A DNA stretch of 37,670 bases from Microcaldota archaeon. Lineage in GTDB: Archaea; Micrarchaeota; Micrarchaeia; Micrarchaeales; CABMGC01. The DNA lies in contig JAKANZ010000002.1 in assembly GCA_021823435.1 (NCBI GenBank), positions 1-37,670 on the forward strand, in the 5' to 3' direction. The translations under genes were made by a program, and so were the position numbers. Shown here one piece after another: positions 2,459 through 34,729 of the stretch; position 1 is the stretch's first letter; each line of letters begins with the position of its first letter. A model generated the notes under the pieces. The model ran no database searches. It was not told the DNA's origin and worked only from the letters and a program-made list of their open reading frames with translations.

Positions 2459-3439
2459 ATGGTGCGTGAGAGGGCAGGTGCTGCAAGTCGCAAGGCGCAG
2501 TCCGCGATGGAGTACCTCATGACCTACGGGTGGGCCATATTAATAATAGCGGTAATACTTGGCGCTCTCTTCCAGCTCGGCGTGTTCAACTCAAACTCAT
2601 TTGCTCCGAAGGCGCCTCCCGGAGCATGCGTGGTCTACAGGCCCTACGGGCCTGTCGATGTGAGGCTAGTATCCTTGAGCGGCATTTGCAACGGGGAGCT
2701 GCCGCAGTACGTTGGAAACTTTAACAACTACCCCGGACCCGCTACGCAGTATATAGGTGTCAACCTTACCGCTTTCCAAAACCAGGGATCAACAATAAAC
2801 GAGCTTACCGCGTCTGCTTGGTTTGCAGAGGACCAGCTGCAAACAAGCAATATCTGCGCTGTTGGATTGATGGGCCAGATGGAGGGCAACGGAGGCGGGT
2901 CGGCGGGCGTCGCTCAGGGATGGTCGTTCGAGGCATACAGGACATGTGACAACGCTCCGTTCATAAGTTTTCTGGCCGGAAACGGAGTTACGCAGGCGAA
3001 CGGGGGTTTGTACGGCATAGGGACTTCAAGCCTGGAGCCCGATACGTGGTACTTTGTCACAGGCACGATAAATGGGAACGTCATATCGCTATATCTAAAC
3101 GGGCAGTTTGTTGCAAACACCGTCGTCACCAGCGGCGTTGCAAATACGCAGTACCCATTCTCCATAGGCGTCTACGGATGGAACGGTTGCCTTACGTGCT
3201 TTGACTGGTGGCAGGGGAGTATAGCCAATATACAGCTATACAATACATCATTTTCAGCGAACGAGGTGCAGCAGCTGTATGTAGAAGGCATAGGAGGCGC
3301 GCCTACGCGGTTGCAGAACCTTGTCGGATGGTGGACGCTGGATGGGAATGCTAACGATTATTCAGGAAACGGCCGCAACGGGACGACAAAAGGTTTGAGT
3401 TATAGCAGCGACTGGACTTCGCAGTACACCCCTCCGTGA
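2459..3439 (+). CDS. Secreted LamG-domain protein with class III signal peptide
   Basis: Predicted surface or pilus-associated protein, 326 aa. After a short basic N-terminus comes QSAMEYLMTYGWAILIIAV, a class III (archaeal pilin-type) signal whose processing would be just before Gln14 by a prepilin peptidase. The rest resembles a concanavalin A/LamG jellyroll: TASAWFAEDQ, WYFVTGTINGNVISLYLNGQ, FSIGVYGW, and IANIQLYNTSFSANEVQQLY, then the terminal block GGAPTRLQNLVGWWTLDGN...DYSGNGRNG. A paralogue with the same layout lies at 33839-34729. Ligand unknown. The start ATG is supported by a TATA box about 25 nt upstream. Confidence 0.85.
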   Translation: MVRERAGAASRKAQSAMEYLMTYGWAILIIAVILGALFQLGVFNSNSFAPKAPPGACVVYRPYGPVDVRLVSLSGICNGELPQYVGNFNNYPGPATQYIGVNLTAFQNQGSTINELTASAWFAEDQLQTSNICAVGLMGQMEGNGGGSAGVAQGWSFEAYRTCDNAPFISFLAGNGVTQANGGLYGIGTSSLEPDTWYFVTGTINGNVISLYLNGQFVANTVVTSGVANTQYPFSIGVYGWNGCLTCFDWWQGSIANIQLYNTSFSANEVQQLYVEGIGGAPTRLQNLVGWWTLDGNANDYSGNGRNGTTKGLSYSSDWTSQYTPP

Positions 3440-11766: not shown

Positions 11767-11784
11767 GACTGGGCCCGCCGAGAG
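11767..11784 (+). repeat. attL: 18-bp copy of tRNA-Val 3' end
   Basis: GACTGGGCCCGCCGAGAG is identical to 15290-15307, where it forms the last 15 nt of tRNA-Val plus 3 flanking bases. Identity stops at 11785. It is the distal copy, without the rest of the tRNA, as expected at the far end of an element inserted into a tRNA 3' end. Confidence 0.9.
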
Positions 11785-12885
11785 CAGCACAGAGGCTCGC
11801 AGGCTGTTGGCAGCCTGCTCGCCCGCACCGCATCCCACAAGGACAAGCTACTTCTCGCACCCCAGCTTTATCTCACTTTCGACTGCGAGCGAGGGCTTCC
11901 CAAGAAGCCCGAAGCGAGCAAGCGCATTGTCGGGCGGGTCATTGGCTTGGCAAGGCAGGATGGGTCTTTGCCCCTCCATAGCAGCGACATCCGAACACAT
12001 TTCGAGGTTCTGCCCGTGAGAGCCCACGAAAGCCACGTAGAGCTGCTGGCAAGCCCAGCGTTCGTTCATCAGCGCATACCAGAACCCGCAACCAAGCCCA
12101 AAGACTACATGCGGGAGCAACTACCGCTGATGGCCAAGTGGGAGATTGAGGAGCTTAGGAGCGAGATCAAGCAGCATTATCTCAGCAGGTTCAAGAGGCC
12201 CAGAATCGCCAAGTACGGAACGCTAAACAAGGGTTTCGAGGAGCAGGAGCTTAGGGTATTCCTAGCGCACATAGACAACGAGAAGCATCGCTTGCTATTC
12301 GAGTTTATGGCTAATCTGGGCTTGCGGGTGGGCGAGGCGGTGAGGGTTAATATCAAGGACATAAAGCCAGAGAGCAGGGAGCTTATCGTTTATACTGAGA
12401 AAGCTAGGCAGCCCGACAGCCTGCGCATACCTCTCCCGCTATTCAAGGAGACGCTAGACTTCATACATGCGCATACGCAAGAGATAGAGCAGCACGAGGG
12501 CTATATCTTCTTCAAGGACTTCAAGTACAGCAAGCATGGTTGCAACCACCTCGACCTTAACTATGTGCGAAACATCTTCAGGGAGTACATAACTGACGCT
12601 GGGCTCGATGAGACCTATGATGTGAGCGAAGAGCGCAATAGCAGAACGCCAAGACGCTTGCATCGCCTAACCACGCATTCGCTAAGACATTATGCTATAA
12701 CCCGCTTTGCGAGGAGCACGAACGGCAATGTGGTGCTCACAGCACACTTCGCTCGGCACAGGAATCCGAGCACTACGAACACTTACATCGCATTGGACAA
12801 GAAAGAGCTTTATGATGTGATTGATGCGATTTCTGTGAATGAAGCGATATTGCTTAAAAAGAAAATTAGCGAAGAAAAAATCTAA
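11767..12885 (+). CDS. Tyrosine integrase, C-terminal part of a split gene (int-C)
   Basis: The frame is open from the att core to the TAA at 12885 but has no ATG before 12112, because the true start lies across the att site at 15230. Reconstructed, the integrase is 392 aa. Catalytic residues visible (reconstructed numbering): Arg207 in LGLRVGE, His324 and Arg327 in HSLRHYA, His351 in ARHRNPSTT and nucleophile Tyr360 in NTYIALD. The first ~60 codons (QAVGSLLARTASHKDKLLL, YLTFDCERGLPKKPEASKR) match a decayed copy at 29127-29333, showing that this untranslatable-looking stretch is real coding sequence. A TTG at 11947 could start a shorter product. If expressed alone this piece still holds the whole catalytic domain. 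Confidence 0.88.
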   Translation, partial: DWARREQHRGSQAVGSLLARTASHKDKLLLAPQLYLTFDCERGLPKKPEASKRIVGRVIGLARQDGSLPLHSSDIRTHFEVLPVRAHESHVELLASPAFVHQRIPEPATKPKDYMREQLPLMAKWEIEELRSEIKQHYLSRFKRPRIAKYGTLNKGFEEQELRVFLAHIDNEKHRLLFEFMANLGLRVGEAVRVNIKDIKPESRELIVYTEKARQPDSLRIPLPLFKETLDFIHAHTQEIEQHEGYIFFKDFKYSKHGCNHLDLNYVRNIFREYITDAGLDETYDVSEERNSRTPRRLHRLTTHSLRHYAITRFARSTNGNVVLTAHFARHRNPSTTNTYIALDKKELYDVIDAISVNEAILLKKKISEEKI

Positions 12886-12890
12886 GATAA

Positions 12891-14051
12891 TCAAGCAGTT
12901 ATTTCACCAAGAATGTGAGTTTTCAATTTCTTCTTGGCATCGAGATAATCGGCTACTGTTGAGCCCTTTAAGAATTTGCCAGATGCCTTGAGTTCCCCAT
13001 CGCTAAGGAAAACCTCGTGTATCCGTGAATAATCTATGGCTTTAGATATAAGCAGTTTATTTTTCATTGCTTCTTTTGAATTTATTTCTTTGACGAGCGT
13101 ATCAGAATAAAAGTCATTATGAATTTTCTCTATCTTTCCTTCGGCTAATATCTCTGCAAGTGGTTTAACAGTTAAATCTTTGCGGAAGAATTTAATTCCA
13201 TCCCACTCTCTTGGCCCTCCGCCTCTTACTCTTACTCTATAAGAGTACAAATCTCCGAAATTAAATTGTGAGTCGTGTATTCTAGAAACGGTATCATCAT
13301 ATGCTCGTTTTTCTATATTTATTATGTTGAATAGAACATCTCCAGATGCTAGCTTACTAAGAATGTTATAGTTGTGTATCGCATCTGCGGGTGGCTTATG
13401 TCTGAAACTTATGATTGGTATTGTACTCTTCCCATAAGACAAGAGTTTATTCAAAAGCAATTCAAAGACTTTTGAGTCTGCATATCCCATATCTAAAACA
13501 ATATTGAGTTGCTTGCCGTTATCCGCCTCTCTTTTAATTACGCTTTCTATTTCATTAATATTCGCCGTGGGTGTGGCACCGAGCGGGACTGTGACGGGTA
13601 GAGTAAGAATATCAACAGGTAGCTGGTTTTGAACTGCTATCAACGTATCAAGATATTTTTTAAAAAGTTCCTTGTTTTTGTATAATTCAGAATAATCAAC
13701 CATTCTGACGGATGGGATAAACATTTTTAGCGTGGCGTGCTGGGCGCTTCTGAAAAATGTACTCGCCGTTCTAATTATATTTGATGGGGCTGTGTTATTT
13801 CGCACAAAGATCGAAATATCATCTATGTTCATTGGCTGCTCATATACGAACACAGGAGACTCGCTAAATAGAGAACGTATTTCTGGAAAGTTGTTTTTTG
13901 CGCGCAAATCAGTTTGGGTAATGGCTCTTATAGGGGTACGAAAACTTGTTTTGTTATCGATTTTAAGAATTCGTGAGCCTATCTTTAACTTTGGCTCTTT
14001 TAGTTTGGAATCAAATTCGTATATGTTTTTTAACTTTATTTTTATGCTCAT
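12891..14051 (-). CDS. Element cargo: 386-aa protein of unknown function
   Basis: Last gene of the cargo operon; its ATG overlaps the previous stop (ATGA at 14048-14051). I do not recognise the family. Visible features are alternating strands and helices suggestive of an alpha/beta barrel: TPIRAITQTDLRAKNN, VDILTLPVTVPLGATP, GKQLNIVLDMGYAD, STIPIISFRHKPPAD, RVRVRGGGPREWDGIKFFRK and SRIHEVFLSDGELKASGKFL near the C-terminus. No signal peptide or membrane helix. AT-rich codons set it apart from the flanks. It may be an effector whose partner is the upstream winged-helix-like protein (inference). Confidence 0.75.
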   Translation of the reverse strand: MSIKIKLKNIYEFDSKLKEPKLKIGSRILKIDNKTSFRTPIRAITQTDLRAKNNFPEIRSLFSESPVFVYEQPMNIDDISIFVRNNTAPSNIIRTASTFFRSAQHATLKMFIPSVRMVDYSELYKNKELFKKYLDTLIAVQNQLPVDILTLPVTVPLGATPTANINEIESVIKREADNGKQLNIVLDMGYADSKVFELLLNKLLSYGKSTIPIISFRHKPPADAIHNYNILSKLASGDVLFNIINIEKRAYDDTVSRIHDSQFNFGDLYSYRVRVRGGGPREWDGIKFFRKDLTVKPLAEILAEGKIEKIHNDFYSDTLVKEINSKEAMKNKLLISKAIDYSRIHEVFLSDGELKASGKFLKGSTVADYLDAKKKLKTHILGEITA

Positions 14052-14632
14052 GCTCCGTGTCGACCCCAAGTAACATCCATGTACAACTTCTTCACCGTTG
14101 ATTTTGTAGTATATTTTCTGTATTCGGGTTTGCTATAAATATACCTTAATAGCCCAGCAGGAGAGAATTCGTCAAGTTCTTTTCTGGCCATTGTGATAGT
14201 CTTGGCCAGTTTCGAGTTGCTTTTTCTTAATTTGTTGAAAATATTCCTTCCTTTACTAGTGAGATAGTAGGCCTGATTATTGGAATTCTTTCTACCTCTG
14301 TAACCTAAATAGCCACTTATAATTAATGCATTAGTGAGTTCGGCGAGTTTGAAACTATATGGCCCTAAACGATATGGGACAAACCGCAGGTCTTCTAATT
14401 TTCTTTCATAATCCAGATATTCGTTGGCAACGAGAAATGCTTCCTTTTGTAGCCTTATGTTTCCATTGAGCTCTTTCTCGCTTGCTCCTATAAGCAGCAG
14501 TATCTGTTGCAAGGCATTCAGTTGATTGTGGTCTACTTTTTTAGAATGTTTCAAACTATCCGCATATGTTCTAATTATTATCTCTGCCTCTGCCCAATCC
14601 AATACTCTCGTTCCATCGGAATAGATTTTCAT
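14048..14632 (-). CDS. Element cargo: winged-helix-like protein
   Basis: 194 aa, middle gene of the cargo operon, coupled on both sides by ATGA overlaps. The pattern NIRLQKEAFLVANEYL, RFVPYRLGPYSFKLAELTNAL, GYLGYRG and YYLTSKGRNIFNKL is that of a helix-turn-helix/winged fold with the F.PY.yGPYS signature shared by prokaryotic accessory proteins, superficially like Panacea/DUF4065. The C-terminal LLRYIYSKPEYRKYTTKSTV resembles the 'YPEYT' tail of such proteins. Role unknown: a regulator of the operon, an antitoxin-like partner or a sensor are all possible. Confidence 0.72.
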   Translation of the reverse strand: MKIYSDGTRVLDWAEAEIIIRTYADSLKHSKKVDHNQLNALQQILLLIGASEKELNGNIRLQKEAFLVANEYLDYERKLEDLRFVPYRLGPYSFKLAELTNALIISGYLGYRGRKNSNNQAYYLTSKGRNIFNKLRKSNSKLAKTITMARKELDEFSPAGLLRYIYSKPEYRKYTTKSTVKKLYMDVTWGRHGA

Positions 14633-15138
14633 TTGATTACCTCAAAACTTTTCAATATGAACACTACTCCTCTTTTCCTATCATTCCCTTTTTCCACATG
14701 AAGCTTAATTTTCAGCTTTTTAAGGCGTATAGCCGTGCTTTTGCCAGATTTAAGTTTTGCAAGCATTCTATTTATCTTTGTACCCTGCGAATTGATGCCT
14801 TTTAGTAAAGGGCTGAAATTAGCATAGCCTGTTGCTGCCCAAGACCCAGCGAATATATCAGAGGGTAGAAAATATCGGTCAAGTACTTCAAATACGCCCC
14901 CGTTATCAAAGACGTAGCCACAACCAAGACATACGTAACGTGTCTGAAAGCGAGATTTAATCGAAGAATTAGAAGATGTCGCAGACGATACCCCCGCTGA
15001 GAATAAGGGTATGCCGCCTTTCGCTTTCGAAGCAGAACTTTTCGCAGAACCTGTGTCAATTACGCTGCCTTTTGATAATTGAATATTATTAGTACCACAC
15101 TTAGGACAATATCGAAAAAATACTCCGTTTCTCCTCAT
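14629..15138 (-). CDS. Element cargo: zinc-ribbon protein
   Basis: 169 aa, first gene of the cargo operon. A split zinc ribbon is formed by YCPKCGTNNI (10-19) and YVCLGCGYVF (about 68-77), separated by a Ser/Ala/Gly-rich loop of about 45 residues that is unusually long. The rest (about 80-169) is basic, with KLKSGKSTAIRLKKLKIKL, and may bind nucleic acid. Its stop overlaps the next start (ATGA at 14629-14632). Candidate TATA boxes lie at 15160-15168 and 15182-15191. Function unknown. Confidence 0.7.
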   Translation of the reverse strand: MRRNGVFFRYCPKCGTNNIQLSKGSVIDTGSAKSSASKAKGGIPLFSAGVSSATSSNSSIKSRFQTRYVCLGCGYVFDNGGVFEVLDRYFLPSDIFAGSWAATGYANFSPLLKGINSQGTKINRMLAKLKSGKSTAIRLKKLKIKLHVEKGNDRKRGVVFILKSFEVIK

Positions 15139-15181
15139 CCGCTCGCTTTCTTTGAAACTTATATTCTAATCGCATCCTTGC

Positions 15182-15204
15182 TATTTAAATACTCTCGCAG
15201 AGAG
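15182..15204. promoter_or_regulatory. Shared symmetric TATA box plus inverted repeat of the element
   Basis: TATTTAAATA at 15182-15191 is a perfect palindrome placed between the divergent cargo operon (start 15138) and int-N (start 15230). It could serve both directions at the usual ~25-nt spacing. It abuts CTCTCGCAGAGAG at 15192-15204, a 5-bp inverted repeat with a 3-nt spacer, well placed as an operator on the integrase side. Confidence 0.5.
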
Positions 15205-15229
15205 CTAACAGCACTTTTCGGTTGTGTTT

Positions 15230-15373
15230 ATGCCCCAAAAAAATTCTAATTTTCTAGCGCCGAACTCCTATTCTGTCGTCGATAATGACGACTGGGCCCG
15301 CCGAGAGTCGAACTCGGCTCTCCACTCTGTGAAAGTGGCGTCTTACCGATGGACCACGAGCCCTCATTTTTAA
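15230..15373 (+). CDS. Tyrosine integrase, N-terminal part of a split gene (int-N)
   Basis: ATG 15230 opens a 20-codon stretch (MPQKNSNFLAPNSYSVVDND) that reaches the att core in the same frame as int-C (DWARRE encoded by both att copies). In the integrated state the frame continues antisense through tRNA-Val and stops at TAA 15371-15373, giving a 47-codon dead-end. In a circular form it would continue into 11785 and yield the whole integrase. A TATA box at 15182-15191 is about 43 nt upstream of the ATG. This is the SSV1-type arrangement of a partitioned integrase. Confidence 0.82.
   Translation: MPQKNSNFLAPNSYSVVDNDDWARRESNSALHSVKVASYRWTTSPHF
15290..15307 (+). repeat. attR: att core inside tRNA-Val 3' end
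   Basis: Identical to 11767-11784. It covers the tRNA discriminator, the 3' acceptor strand and part of the T stem, plus 3 nt beyond the tRNA end. The intact tRNA extends from here away from the element, so integration left the tRNA functional. Confidence 0.9.
15293..15363 (-). tRNA. tRNA-Val(CAC)
   Basis: 71-nt cloverleaf read on the minus strand: acceptor GGGCTCG/CGGGCCC (one U-G pair), D arm with GGTAA loop, anticodon stem CCACT/AGTGG with loop TTCACAG (anticodon CAC), T stem CCGAG/CTCGG with TTCGACT loop, discriminator A. CCA is not encoded. Its 3' end is the attachment site of the 11.8-15.3 kb element. No intron. Confidence 0.95.
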
Positions 15374-22829: not shown

Positions 22830-23354
22830 TTATCGGCTTCTTCCGAGGACCCTGTACCGCAGTTGCACCTCGCTCTTGGATATCTTTCTCGCCCAGAGCA
22901 GCTTCAGTTTTGCCTCGAAATTCGGGCCGTCGAAGAGTCTCTTGCCTTTGGTGAATACGGCAGGCTCAACGTCGAGGAAGATCTCGTCTACAAGACCATT
23001 CTGCATGAAGGCAGCATTGCTTGCGCCTCCTCCGGCAACAAGCGCCTGGCTGAACCCCTCTTTCTTGAGGATCGAGAGCGCTTCCCGCGGTCCGCTGGCG
23101 AATGAGACCTGGTTATGACCGCGCTTTCCTGTTTTGTTGTGAGTCATGACGACTATCCTGACGCCCCTAAATCGCTTTAACTCGCCTTCATTGACTATGA
23201 CGTTGAATGTCTTATGGCCGACTATCATGTTGCCCGTGCTCTTTGCCTTCTTGATGAACAGCAGCCAGTCGCCGGGCAGCACAAAGCTAGTATCGTCGTT
23301 TTCTCTTGCCACCATCCCATTCGGCGTAACCGCCATATACATTACGACCTTCAT
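22830..23354 (-). CDS. RibD C-terminal/dihydrofolate reductase-like reductase
   Basis: 174 aa. MKVVMYMAVTPNGMVA, VGHKTFNVIVNEGELKRFRG, VRIVVMTHNKTG and the NADPH-binding segment QALVAGGGASNAAFMQNGLV match the RibD-C/DHFR fold, as in archaeal riboflavin-pathway pyrimidine reductases and DfrA-like proteins. Substrate not determined by sequence. It converges on the preceding membrane protein with 3 nt between stops. tRNA-Leu lies 14 nt upstream on the same strand, so both may share a transcript. Confidence 0.82.
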   Translation of the reverse strand: MKVVMYMAVTPNGMVARENDDTSFVLPGDWLLFIKKAKSTGNMIVGHKTFNVIVNEGELKRFRGVRIVVMTHNKTGKRGHNQVSFASGPREALSILKKEGFSQALVAGGGASNAAFMQNGLVDEIFLDVEPAVFTKGKRLFDGPNFEAKLKLLWARKISKSEVQLRYRVLGRSR

Positions 23355-29137: not shown

Positions 29138-29333
29138 AGCGCATTCAGGCCCGCAGGCTGTTGGCAGCCTGCTCACCCACACGGCATCCTGCAAAGGCAA
29201 GCTACTTCTCGCACTCCATCTTTATCTCTCTTTCGACGGCAAGCGAAGGATTCCCAAGAAGCCCGAAGCGAGCAAGTGCGTTGTCGTGCAGGTCATTCAT
29301 TTGGCGAAGCCGGATAGGTCTTTGCACCTCTAA
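29127..29333 (+). pseudogene. Decayed integrase N-terminal region
   Basis: Frame from 29127 to TAA 29331-29333 encodes ARREAHSGPQAVGSLLTHTA, KLLLALHLYLSFDGKRRIPK and KPEASKCVV, aligning codon for codon with int-C (ARREQHRGSQAVGSLLARTA, KLLLAPQLYLTFDCERGLPK, KPEASKRIV). After SLHL it hits a stop, and the catalytic domain is absent. The DNA is roughly 75-80% identical over about 185 bp (11798-11983 against 29152-29335). It is the remains of a second integration by a relative of the 11.8-kb element. Confined to the gap between the GNAT and ABC genes. Confidence 0.8.
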
Positions 29334-29337
29334 TACA

Positions 29338-29383
29338 ACGGGATCTGAACCTGCAACCAACGGCTCCGCAAACTGCATGCTAA
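29338..29383 (-). pseudogene. tRNA-Arg-like fragment (T and anticodon arms)
   Basis: Matches 31190-31234 of tRNA-Arg(GCG) with about five substitutions and one base missing: the runs TGAACC, GCAACCAAC, GCTCCGCAA and CTGC are shared. Acceptor and D arms are missing. It marks either an attachment-site remnant or a segment captured by the element. Confidence 0.6.
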
Positions 29384-31089: not shown

Positions 31090-31182
31090 CAAATCAACGG
31101 TTTAACGCAAAAGTGTTTCCGAAGAAGGTATTTATTTATGTTAACAGACCATGGAGGAACCTGCTTCGCAAGGTTTCCCAGG

Positions 31183-31257
31183 CGGGCACGGCGGGATTTG
31201 AACCCGCAACCAACAGCTCCGCAAGCTGCCGTGCTATCCAAGTTACACCACGTGCCC
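31183..31257 (-). tRNA. tRNA-Arg(GCG)
   Basis: 75-nt cloverleaf: acceptor GGGCACG/CGTGCCC, D arm around GTGTAACTTGGATAGCAC, anticodon stem GCAGC/GCTGT (one G-U) with loop TTGCGGA (anticodon GCG), T stem GCGGG/CCCGC with loop TTCAAAT, discriminator G. CCA not encoded. Its 3' end faces the ABC transporter and the integrase remnant. On the opposite strand an ATG at 31138 enters the tRNA 3' end in the frame of that remnant (RRARRDLNP), like int-N of the other element. Confidence 0.94.
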
Positions 31258-33799: not shown

Positions 33800-33838
33800 A
33801 GCTAAGGCTTTTATTTTTCGTATGCGCTGTTGAGACAC

Positions 33839-34729
33839 ATGCGAAGAAGGACGGCAAAGGCACAGTCCGCAATGGAGTACCTCATGACTTACGGGTGGGC
33901 GATACTCATCATAGCGGTTGTATTAGGAGCCTTGTTTCAGCTGGGCGTCTTCAACGCAGGAACGTTCGCGCCGCGGGCTCCGCCAGGAGCCTGCCAGGTC
34001 TTCAGGTCTAACGGCCCGGGCAGCACTCAGTTCATCAACCTCGAGGGCGTATGCAGTGGGGAGCTGCCGCAATATGTGGGTGTCTTCAACGGACAAAGCG
34101 GATACGTGAATACTGCTGTAGATCCGGCTGGACAAGCAGAAATAACAGTAACCGTATGGGCAAATCAAAAATCCTTAATTACATCCGGGCCGGGGCCCTG
34201 TCAAGACGCAGTAGCTGCGTACAACAGCCTAGGATTTTCTTTTATAGTGAGAACTGGTGCCAGTGGTTGCAACTCCCCAGGTGCTCTTAACGTGTACATC
34301 GGCAGTACTGCAGGCAACAATTGTGCTGGTAACAGTGCGCTTCCACTAAGAACGTGGAGTTCTTTGTCCCTAGTTTATAACGGAATTGATCTTGTTGGAT
34401 ACGTCAACGGCATCGAAGTGTGCTCTGTTACCGCTACCGGGTCCTTGACTGAGGGAGGACCGACAAGAATCGGAGTAGGCGCAAGTAATGGAGAATTTTT
34501 CAACGGTTCCCTAGCCAATATTCAGATCTACAACACCTCGCTCTCGCAGGCAGAGATAACCGCGCTCTATGACGAGGGCATCGGTGGTGCTCCGGTCAGA
34601 CTACAGAATCTCGTGGGCTGGTGGCCTCTCAACGGGAACGCGAACGACTACAGCGGAAACAACAACAACGGAGTCCCGAGCGCGGTGACGTACACGAACC
34701 AGTGGAGTTCAGGGTATACTGCACCGTGA
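33839..34729 (+). CDS. Secreted LamG-domain protein with class III signal peptide (paralogue)
   Basis: 296 aa. Same layout as the gene at 2459: basic start, QSAMEYLMTYGWAILIIAVV pilin-type signal with FQLGVFN, an APPGACQVF segment, LamG-like strands (ITVTVWANQK, WSSLSLVYNGIDLVGYVNGI) and an almost identical end: SLANIQIYNTSLSQAEITAL, GGAPVRLQNLVGWWPLNGNA, NDYSGNNNNG. The middle is divergent and less GC-rich. ATG 33839 fits a TTTTATTTTT promoter element about 28 nt upstream (leaderless). Probably a surface or pilus component. Confidence 0.85.
   Translation: MRRRTAKAQSAMEYLMTYGWAILIIAVVLGALFQLGVFNAGTFAPRAPPGACQVFRSNGPGSTQFINLEGVCSGELPQYVGVFNGQSGYVNTAVDPAGQAEITVTVWANQKSLITSGPGPCQDAVAAYNSLGFSFIVRTGASGCNSPGALNVYIGSTAGNNCAGNSALPLRTWSSLSLVYNGIDLVGYVNGIEVCSVTATGSLTEGGPTRIGVGASNGEFFNGSLANIQIYNTSLSQAEITALYDEGIGGAPVRLQNLVGWWPLNGNANDYSGNNNNGVPSAVTYTNQWSSGYTAP

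Follow-up and report, generated by a model that had tools for sequence, protein, structure and literature searches.

Type I "suicidal" archaeal integrases, including those of SSV1, pTN3 and pT26-2, have been reviewed by Badel et al. (2021; PMC8371274), who concluded that disruption of the integrase's own gene had a single origin, within a PF16795 superfamily; DPANN archaea are unmentioned in that review. Very small integrated elements are known from thaumarchaeal chromosomes, where the 2.6-kb NitUzo-E2 consists of an integrase, a winged helix-turn-helix (wHTH) gene and two unknowns, and where NitEve-E3 has an SSV1-like split integrase (PMC6563490). Here we describe a 3.5-kb element integrated at a tRNA-Val gene of a Microcaldota archaeon (Micrarchaeota), in a stretch of 37,670 nucleotides (contig JAKANZ010000002.1 of assembly GCA_021823435.1; hereafter, the window). 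The genome of origin (G000) is a metagenome-assembled genome of 688 kb that is 78% complete. The element appears to work like a type I archaeal integrative element without being of the SSV type by integrase descent. As in SSV1-type elements, the integrase transcription unit has the attachment site attP at its 5' end, and the core lies within the 3' half of the targeted tRNA gene; for most of the Micrarchaeota family the likeness extends to a cut gene that has left its start codon behind at the opposite end. The differences are that the Micrarchaeota integrases belong to PF00589 (XerA-like) and not to PF16795, that their elements measure 1.7-8 kb as against 15.5 kb for SSV1, that the model of the window integrase has no core-binding domain, that the host is a Micrarchaeote, and that the clade of the window integrase seems to keep an uncut catalytic open reading frame (ORF).

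The element, of 3,523 bp, is bounded by two identical 18-bp cores, a distal left copy (11767-11784) and a right copy (15290-15307). The core 18-mer (GACTGGGCCCGCCGAGAG) is present in exactly two copies in the window, even when up to three mismatches are allowed, with 0.01 predicted from shuffled sequences. The right core corresponds to the final 15 nt of a tRNA-Val(CAC) gene (15363-15293, minus strand; ARAGORN, and Rfam with 52 bits) plus the 3 nt past its end, an overlap with the tRNA 3' end such as SSV-type elements display; the element restores this target gene. The GC content is 0.38 in the cargo and 0.51-0.54 in the flanks. Both the repeat coordinates and the tRNA location given in the first-pass annotation of this DNA were correct. 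Its proposal that the cores arose by tyrosine-recombinase integration into tRNA-Val is borne out by the core duplication, by an empty site and by different cargo at an occupied one. The empty site, for which it had suggested a search among related genomes, is in the congener G002, where the F420-type oxidoreductase and cobalamin adenosyltransferase genes that flank the element in the window have a lone tRNA-Val between them; at three unoccupied loci in congeners there was no trace of the element interior. In another congener, G005, a sister element bounded by the same 18-bp cores occupies the same tRNA-Val. Its integrase region is 87% identical to that of the window and the chromosomal flanks are 76-81% identical, whereas the cargo is unrelated. 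A third, more distant element is found at the same tRNA in another species (G001), and in G003 a sister integrase (L024) occupies another tRNA gene, which contains an intron and has a matching core of its own. No circular excised form was found among the viral contigs searched. Given this variable occupancy (empty in G002, other cargo in G005), we take the insertion to be a real and variable integrated element.

The integrase gene (12016-12885, plus strand) has a GTG start preceded by a Shine-Dalgarno (SD) sequence, GAGGT, at 12004-12008, and encodes a 289-aa tyrosine recombinase of family PF00589 with the residues R104, K129, H221, R224, H248 and Y257. The first-pass annotation had joined the frame 15230-15307 to 11785-12885 to give 392 codons without a stop, a join that we reproduced; it had rightly located R207, H324, R327, H351 and Y360 in that numbering, in which K232 completes the R-K-H-R-H-Y set. 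Across 77 family integrases the catalytic residues are 97-100% conserved. Together with the Phage_integrase profile, this set identifies a XerA-like PF00589 recombinase, and the nearest solved relatives by profile (5e-11) are XerA and archaeal Xer (4a8e, 5hxy), which are also among the best by fold. A model of the translated region 11767-12882 consists of two helices followed by a catalytic domain resembling XerH, IntI4 and XerA in a fold search; its linker part is unstructured (pLDDT <50), the alignment being shallow there, so that low confidence is expected regardless. XerA and archaeal Xer are full two-domain proteins acting at dif, whereas the window integrase has just two helices before its catalytic domain and targets tRNA genes; it scores 55.1 bits against the XerA equivalog NF040815, below the curated cut-off of 220 bits. 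Every family integrase scanned (7 + 7) matched PF00589 and none matched PF16795 (Phage_integr_3), to which an SSV1 control matches at 1.5e-61; conversely, the family HMM did not detect SSV1 (score below zero). The label "SSV-type" given in the first-pass annotation is thus apt for the architecture of most of the family, in which the gene is cut, but not for kinship. Between the window and G005, a dN/dS of 0.07 (dS 0.58) indicates strong purifying selection on the catalytic part.

By profile searches, the integrase family was found in 51 of the 79 genomes of the taxonomic family and, phylum-wide, in 106 of 301 genomes (about a third) and 45 of 126 genera; no relatives turned up in IMG/VR or in phage or plasmid collections. 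A literature search found no description of the family, most subscription journals and bioRxiv being outside its reach, and this large family is apparently undescribed. In 41 elements the boundaries could be set by a repeated tRNA 3' end on either side of the integrase; sizes range from 1.74 to 8.0 kb with a median of 4.0 kb, statistics that exclude elements with doubtful boundaries (in most cases because the core measured 11-13 bp or the tRNA was distant). The window element had been called exceptionally small. It does have very few genes, an integrase and three cargo genes, but its size is typical of its family, in which the minimum is 1.7 kb, and the thaumarchaeal element of 2.6 kb is already published. 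The thaumarchaeal elements are likewise tiny integrase-plus-few-genes elements in archaeal chromosomes; they belong to another phylum and are compared here without integrase kinship, while those of Micrarchaeota form one many-member integrase family and are among the smallest integrase-borne mobile elements. The targets include Val, Glu, Leu, Ala, Pro, Trp, Lys and Arg tRNA genes and are mostly constant within clades, with 16 target changes on the tree. The 166 cargo ORFs of the family fall into 145 clusters. Their products include six DNA methylases of the N6/N4 kind, nucleases of the Tsp45I, Mrr and GmrSD types, an ATPase like PARIS AriA, AbiU and a helicase of the Schlafen type, so that defence genes form part of the cargo. 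Several elements add such defence genes (PARIS AriA-like, AbiU, restriction-modification, GmrSD-like, Schlafen-type helicase) to genomes of just ~0.5-1.5 Mb. The genome of the window itself holds a second family element of 2.1 kb in tRNA-Lys(TTT) (L003, contig C27, 2364-4480), whose attP lies within the frame of a membrane protein and not within int. At another locus (L169), two family integrases lie head-to-head with a common linker, adjoining tRNA-Val(GAC).

In most of the family the integrase gene does appear to be cut by integration, a suicide architecture built on a PF00589 domain. The case in point is group II, in which int directly follows a tRNA gene on the same strand. Here the integrase frame is open back into the 3' half of the tRNA, usually without a start codon between, and at the far core a frame with an ATG and an SD sequence enters the core in the phase of the integrase in 19 of 29 cases, the other two phases accounting for 1 and 0. 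The resulting junctions read MARNIGVKQLGNTLKPLAGS followed by RVQIS (Leu-type) or MKLENDDK.GQGRGAFNP followed by ATRVQIP (Glu-type). The N-terminal stretch has a third-codon-position excess of 0.56 (Glu) and 0.43 (Leu), which fits coding sequence. The int-N pattern was absent from the viral contigs searched. We discarded the idea that integration leaves every integrase of the family whole, since group II has no start codon between the tRNA and the catalytic domain. None of the long open frames (500-700 aa) considered as uncut genes contained a fused, uncut integrase. At L080-L084 and L102, the core lies within a small, coiled-coil-like ORF that reaches into the start of int; there, integration cuts that ORF and not int.

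The clade of the window integrase (tree support 98) presents a different picture. An SD sequence and an ATG or GTG upstream of a conserved KYG motif are found in 18 of its 21 members, mostly 49-68 codons upstream of the motif, as compared with 5 of 61 elsewhere. Between the core and this start lies a hairpin-rich linker, or P' arm (11785-12015, plus strand; GC 0.61), which amounts to 83 codons in the window and to 177-783 bp in the clade. At the other end of the element, a leader (int-N; 15230-15289, plus strand), consisting of an ATG and 20 codons up to the core, is in phase with the integrase, as is the corresponding start in relatives. Upstream of it, a promoter-like sequence (TTTAAATA) with an inverted repeat (CTCTCGCAGAGAG) forms a candidate TATA box (15184-15204, plus strand). 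The combination of TATA-like box and inverted repeat (TTTAAATACTCTCNCAGAGAG) has four copies in eight congeneric genomes, at tRNA-proximal ends only, one of them in a relic, and we infer that in the window it would be the TATA box of the integrase transcript of the circular form. The linker seems to evolve as structured DNA without selection at the protein level. Between the window and G005, its codons 6-62 have 4, 6 and 5 changes at codon positions 1, 2 and 3, and dN/dS is about 1 (1.1 over codons 6-75, with dS 0.09); the int-N codons differ by seven non-synonymous and no synonymous changes. The linker has no Rfam match, the tRNA being the sole one. L024 has an in-frame TGA in the joining frame directly upstream of its own start, and stretches of the L076 and L152 linkers are homologous but in different frames. 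The linker as an ordinary coding extension is weakened by the dN/dS and by these frame shifts. In the tRNA-Pro subclade a different frame of the linker codes for a small protein of its own (codon-position changes 83/102/219), so the gene cut there is not int.

We propose that the 3.5-kb circle, acted upon by its tyrosine recombinase, would recombine its 18-bp core with the tRNA-Val(CAC) gene at its 3' end and thereby regenerate the tRNA. Across the family, attP would be at the 5' end of the integrase's own transcription unit. In most members the core lies within the coding sequence, which loses its start codon upon integration in the manner of SSV-type suicide integrases. The window clade has the linker, with its own SD and start, between core and catalytic ORF. 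Because this start is downstream of the core, integration most likely parts the integrase from its putative TATA box and leader (15184-15289) and leaves all of the 289-aa ORF; the integrase would then be silenced by being parted from its promoter, the protein itself staying uncut. In the window branch, an uncut integrase gene was most likely retained or regained. The 289-aa ORF and its SD are intact in the integrated copy, which would resemble the type II (pNOB8-type) state of a whole gene after integration if this ORF is the full functional protein. Sister branches show attP within the coding sequence, whereas the window clade combines a downstream SD and start with a neutral linker and a kept phase. 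The assertion of the first-pass annotation that the captured copy cannot excise without integrase supplied in trans is not supported, as a complete catalytic ORF remains; excision may still occur if the integrase is transcribed from the flank or supplied by a relative. A possible parallel for promoter separation is ICEclc, in which the integrase is joined to an outward promoter in the circular form only; that element is bacterial, far larger and conjugative. Taken as a whole, insertion at tRNA-Val by a XerA-like Micrarchaeota family whose window clade keeps the whole 289-aa ORF is the best explanation, and we consider it probable.

Several observations weigh against this explanation. One phase is common to the leader ATG, the core and the integrase in the window and in L023, L024, L076, L077 and L078, and to the core and integrase in L152. 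Relative to shuffles, stops are depleted in the linker frame of L076 (p 0.004) and L152 (p 0.001); in the window the depletion is not significant (0.24). Stop depletion and kept phase hint at the production of a fused long form, and the linker dN/dS comes from one sequence pair with 15 nucleotide differences in codons 6-62. A true suicide integrase, the circle making a 392-aa product from ATG 15230 through the core and integration leaving inactive halves, would account for the single open phase across the core, retained in seven close relatives, and for the depletion of stops in two of them, and would match the sister branches, which truly cut int. We nevertheless judge it unlikely in view of the SD and internal start conserved in the clade, the 83-codon linker that is neutral at the protein level and has no confident structure, the in-frame stop of L024, the differing frames of L076 and L152, and the exclusively non-synonymous int-N changes. 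The first-pass claim that integration cuts a 392-aa product in two is weakened for the window clade; the phase across the core is nonetheless not accidental, and cutting is genuine in other branches of the family. Next in order, and unlikely too, is a switch of isoforms: the circle would make a long, 392-aa integrating form, and the integrated copy, from a flanking promoter, a 289-aa form of different or excisive activity. Conserved signals at both starts (the TATA box and leader at 15184-15230; SD and GTG at 12016) and the phase kept between them speak for such a switch, against which stand the lack of protein-level constraint on the linker and the fact that both products are predictions from sequence. 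That the element is a dead remnant, an old immobile insertion with decaying repeats and ORFs, is very improbable: relics lie nearby (29147-29376, and on contig C17) and four of the integrases sampled carry stops, but the window integrase is intact and under strong purifying selection, the cores are identical, the overlapping cargo operon is intact and cargo turns over at the same site.

The self-cutting architecture of the PF16795 superfamily recurs here on PF00589. Tentatively, and with considerable doubt, we suggest that self-splitting arose a second time, from a XerA-like PF00589 integrase in Micrarchaeota, and that the window branch partly escaped it through a long/short switch via a structured, in-phase linker neutral to amino acid sequence. 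The family holds both states, a cut gene and an uncut gene with its own start; therefore, the upkeep and loss of suicide integrases can be tested by comparison within it.

The cargo of the window element consists of three minus-strand genes forming an overlapping operon. The first gene of the operon, cargo gene 3 (14629-15138; 169 aa, possible zinc ribbon, with weak matches below cut-off), overlaps the next by 4 bp. Cargo gene 2 (14048-14632; 194 aa) is winged-helix-like and a defence candidate, matching PADLOC PDC-M19A (1e-11), phrog_24871 (3.9e-10) and, weakly, DarG (1e-4); its single-sequence model is poor (pLDDT 43). Cargo gene 1 (12891-14051; 386-392 aa) has no recognisable relative. For genes 1 and 2, searches of plasmids and of 164 genomes from the order gave no homologues, and those of the PDB none that was credible; defence and profile searches gave no convincing or informative matches for genes 1 and 3. 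The similarity to PDC-M19A and the defence genes of sister elements suggest that the cargo is probably a defence or toxin-antitoxin type system. On the other side, this function hangs on one weak family match, and no complete known anti-phage system was recognised, gene 2 alone resembling PDC-M19A.

Conserved DNA motifs mark the element ends. The linker contains a perfect hairpin (GCAGGCTG-TTGG-CAGCCTGC, 11799-11818) and a conserved 30-bp hairpin motif (AGCGAGGGCTTCCCAAGAAGCCCGAAGCGA, 11888-11917). The latter, confined to linkers and relics, is near-identical between integrases sharing just 44-54% identity and has five sites in the eight congeneric genomes, four in core-to-integrase linkers and one in a relic at 29242. 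Motifs resembling the tRNA T arm (TC[CT]GAACC) reach 1.5-2.3 per kb on the enriched strands at element ends and at most 0.11 in cargo, int and flanks. The window has a plus-strand copy at 11990-11998 (TCCGAACAC), a candidate integrase binding site, and another at 15259-15267 (GCCGAACTC), about -31 from the core. Among the relatives of the window, such motifs lie at -31 to -34 (in seven of them) and at -120 to -123 from the right core. We infer that they may be integrase binding sites mimicking the T arm; if so, this mimicry would let one enzyme family use many tRNAs.

Traces of further elements were also observed. In the window, a relic (29147-29376 and 31181-31257) includes 184 bp that are 85% identical to the linker (11793-11976). 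It ends in 38 bp copied from part of the tRNA-Arg(GCG) gene close by (31192-31229), the junction lying at a T-arm-like motif, as if a linker motif had recombined with the tRNA T arm. On contig C17 of the same genome (L022/L163, ~23035-23060), the linker hairpin motif is found ~145 bp from tRNA-Val(GAC) with no integrase left, probably another relic. In G005, a second, decayed leader/int-N beside the intact one (L023, 9340-9520) suggests successive integrations at the same tRNA. Finally, the window encodes two paralogous pilin-like proteins (2459-3439 and 33830-34729), with 73% nucleotide identity over 225 bp near their starts.

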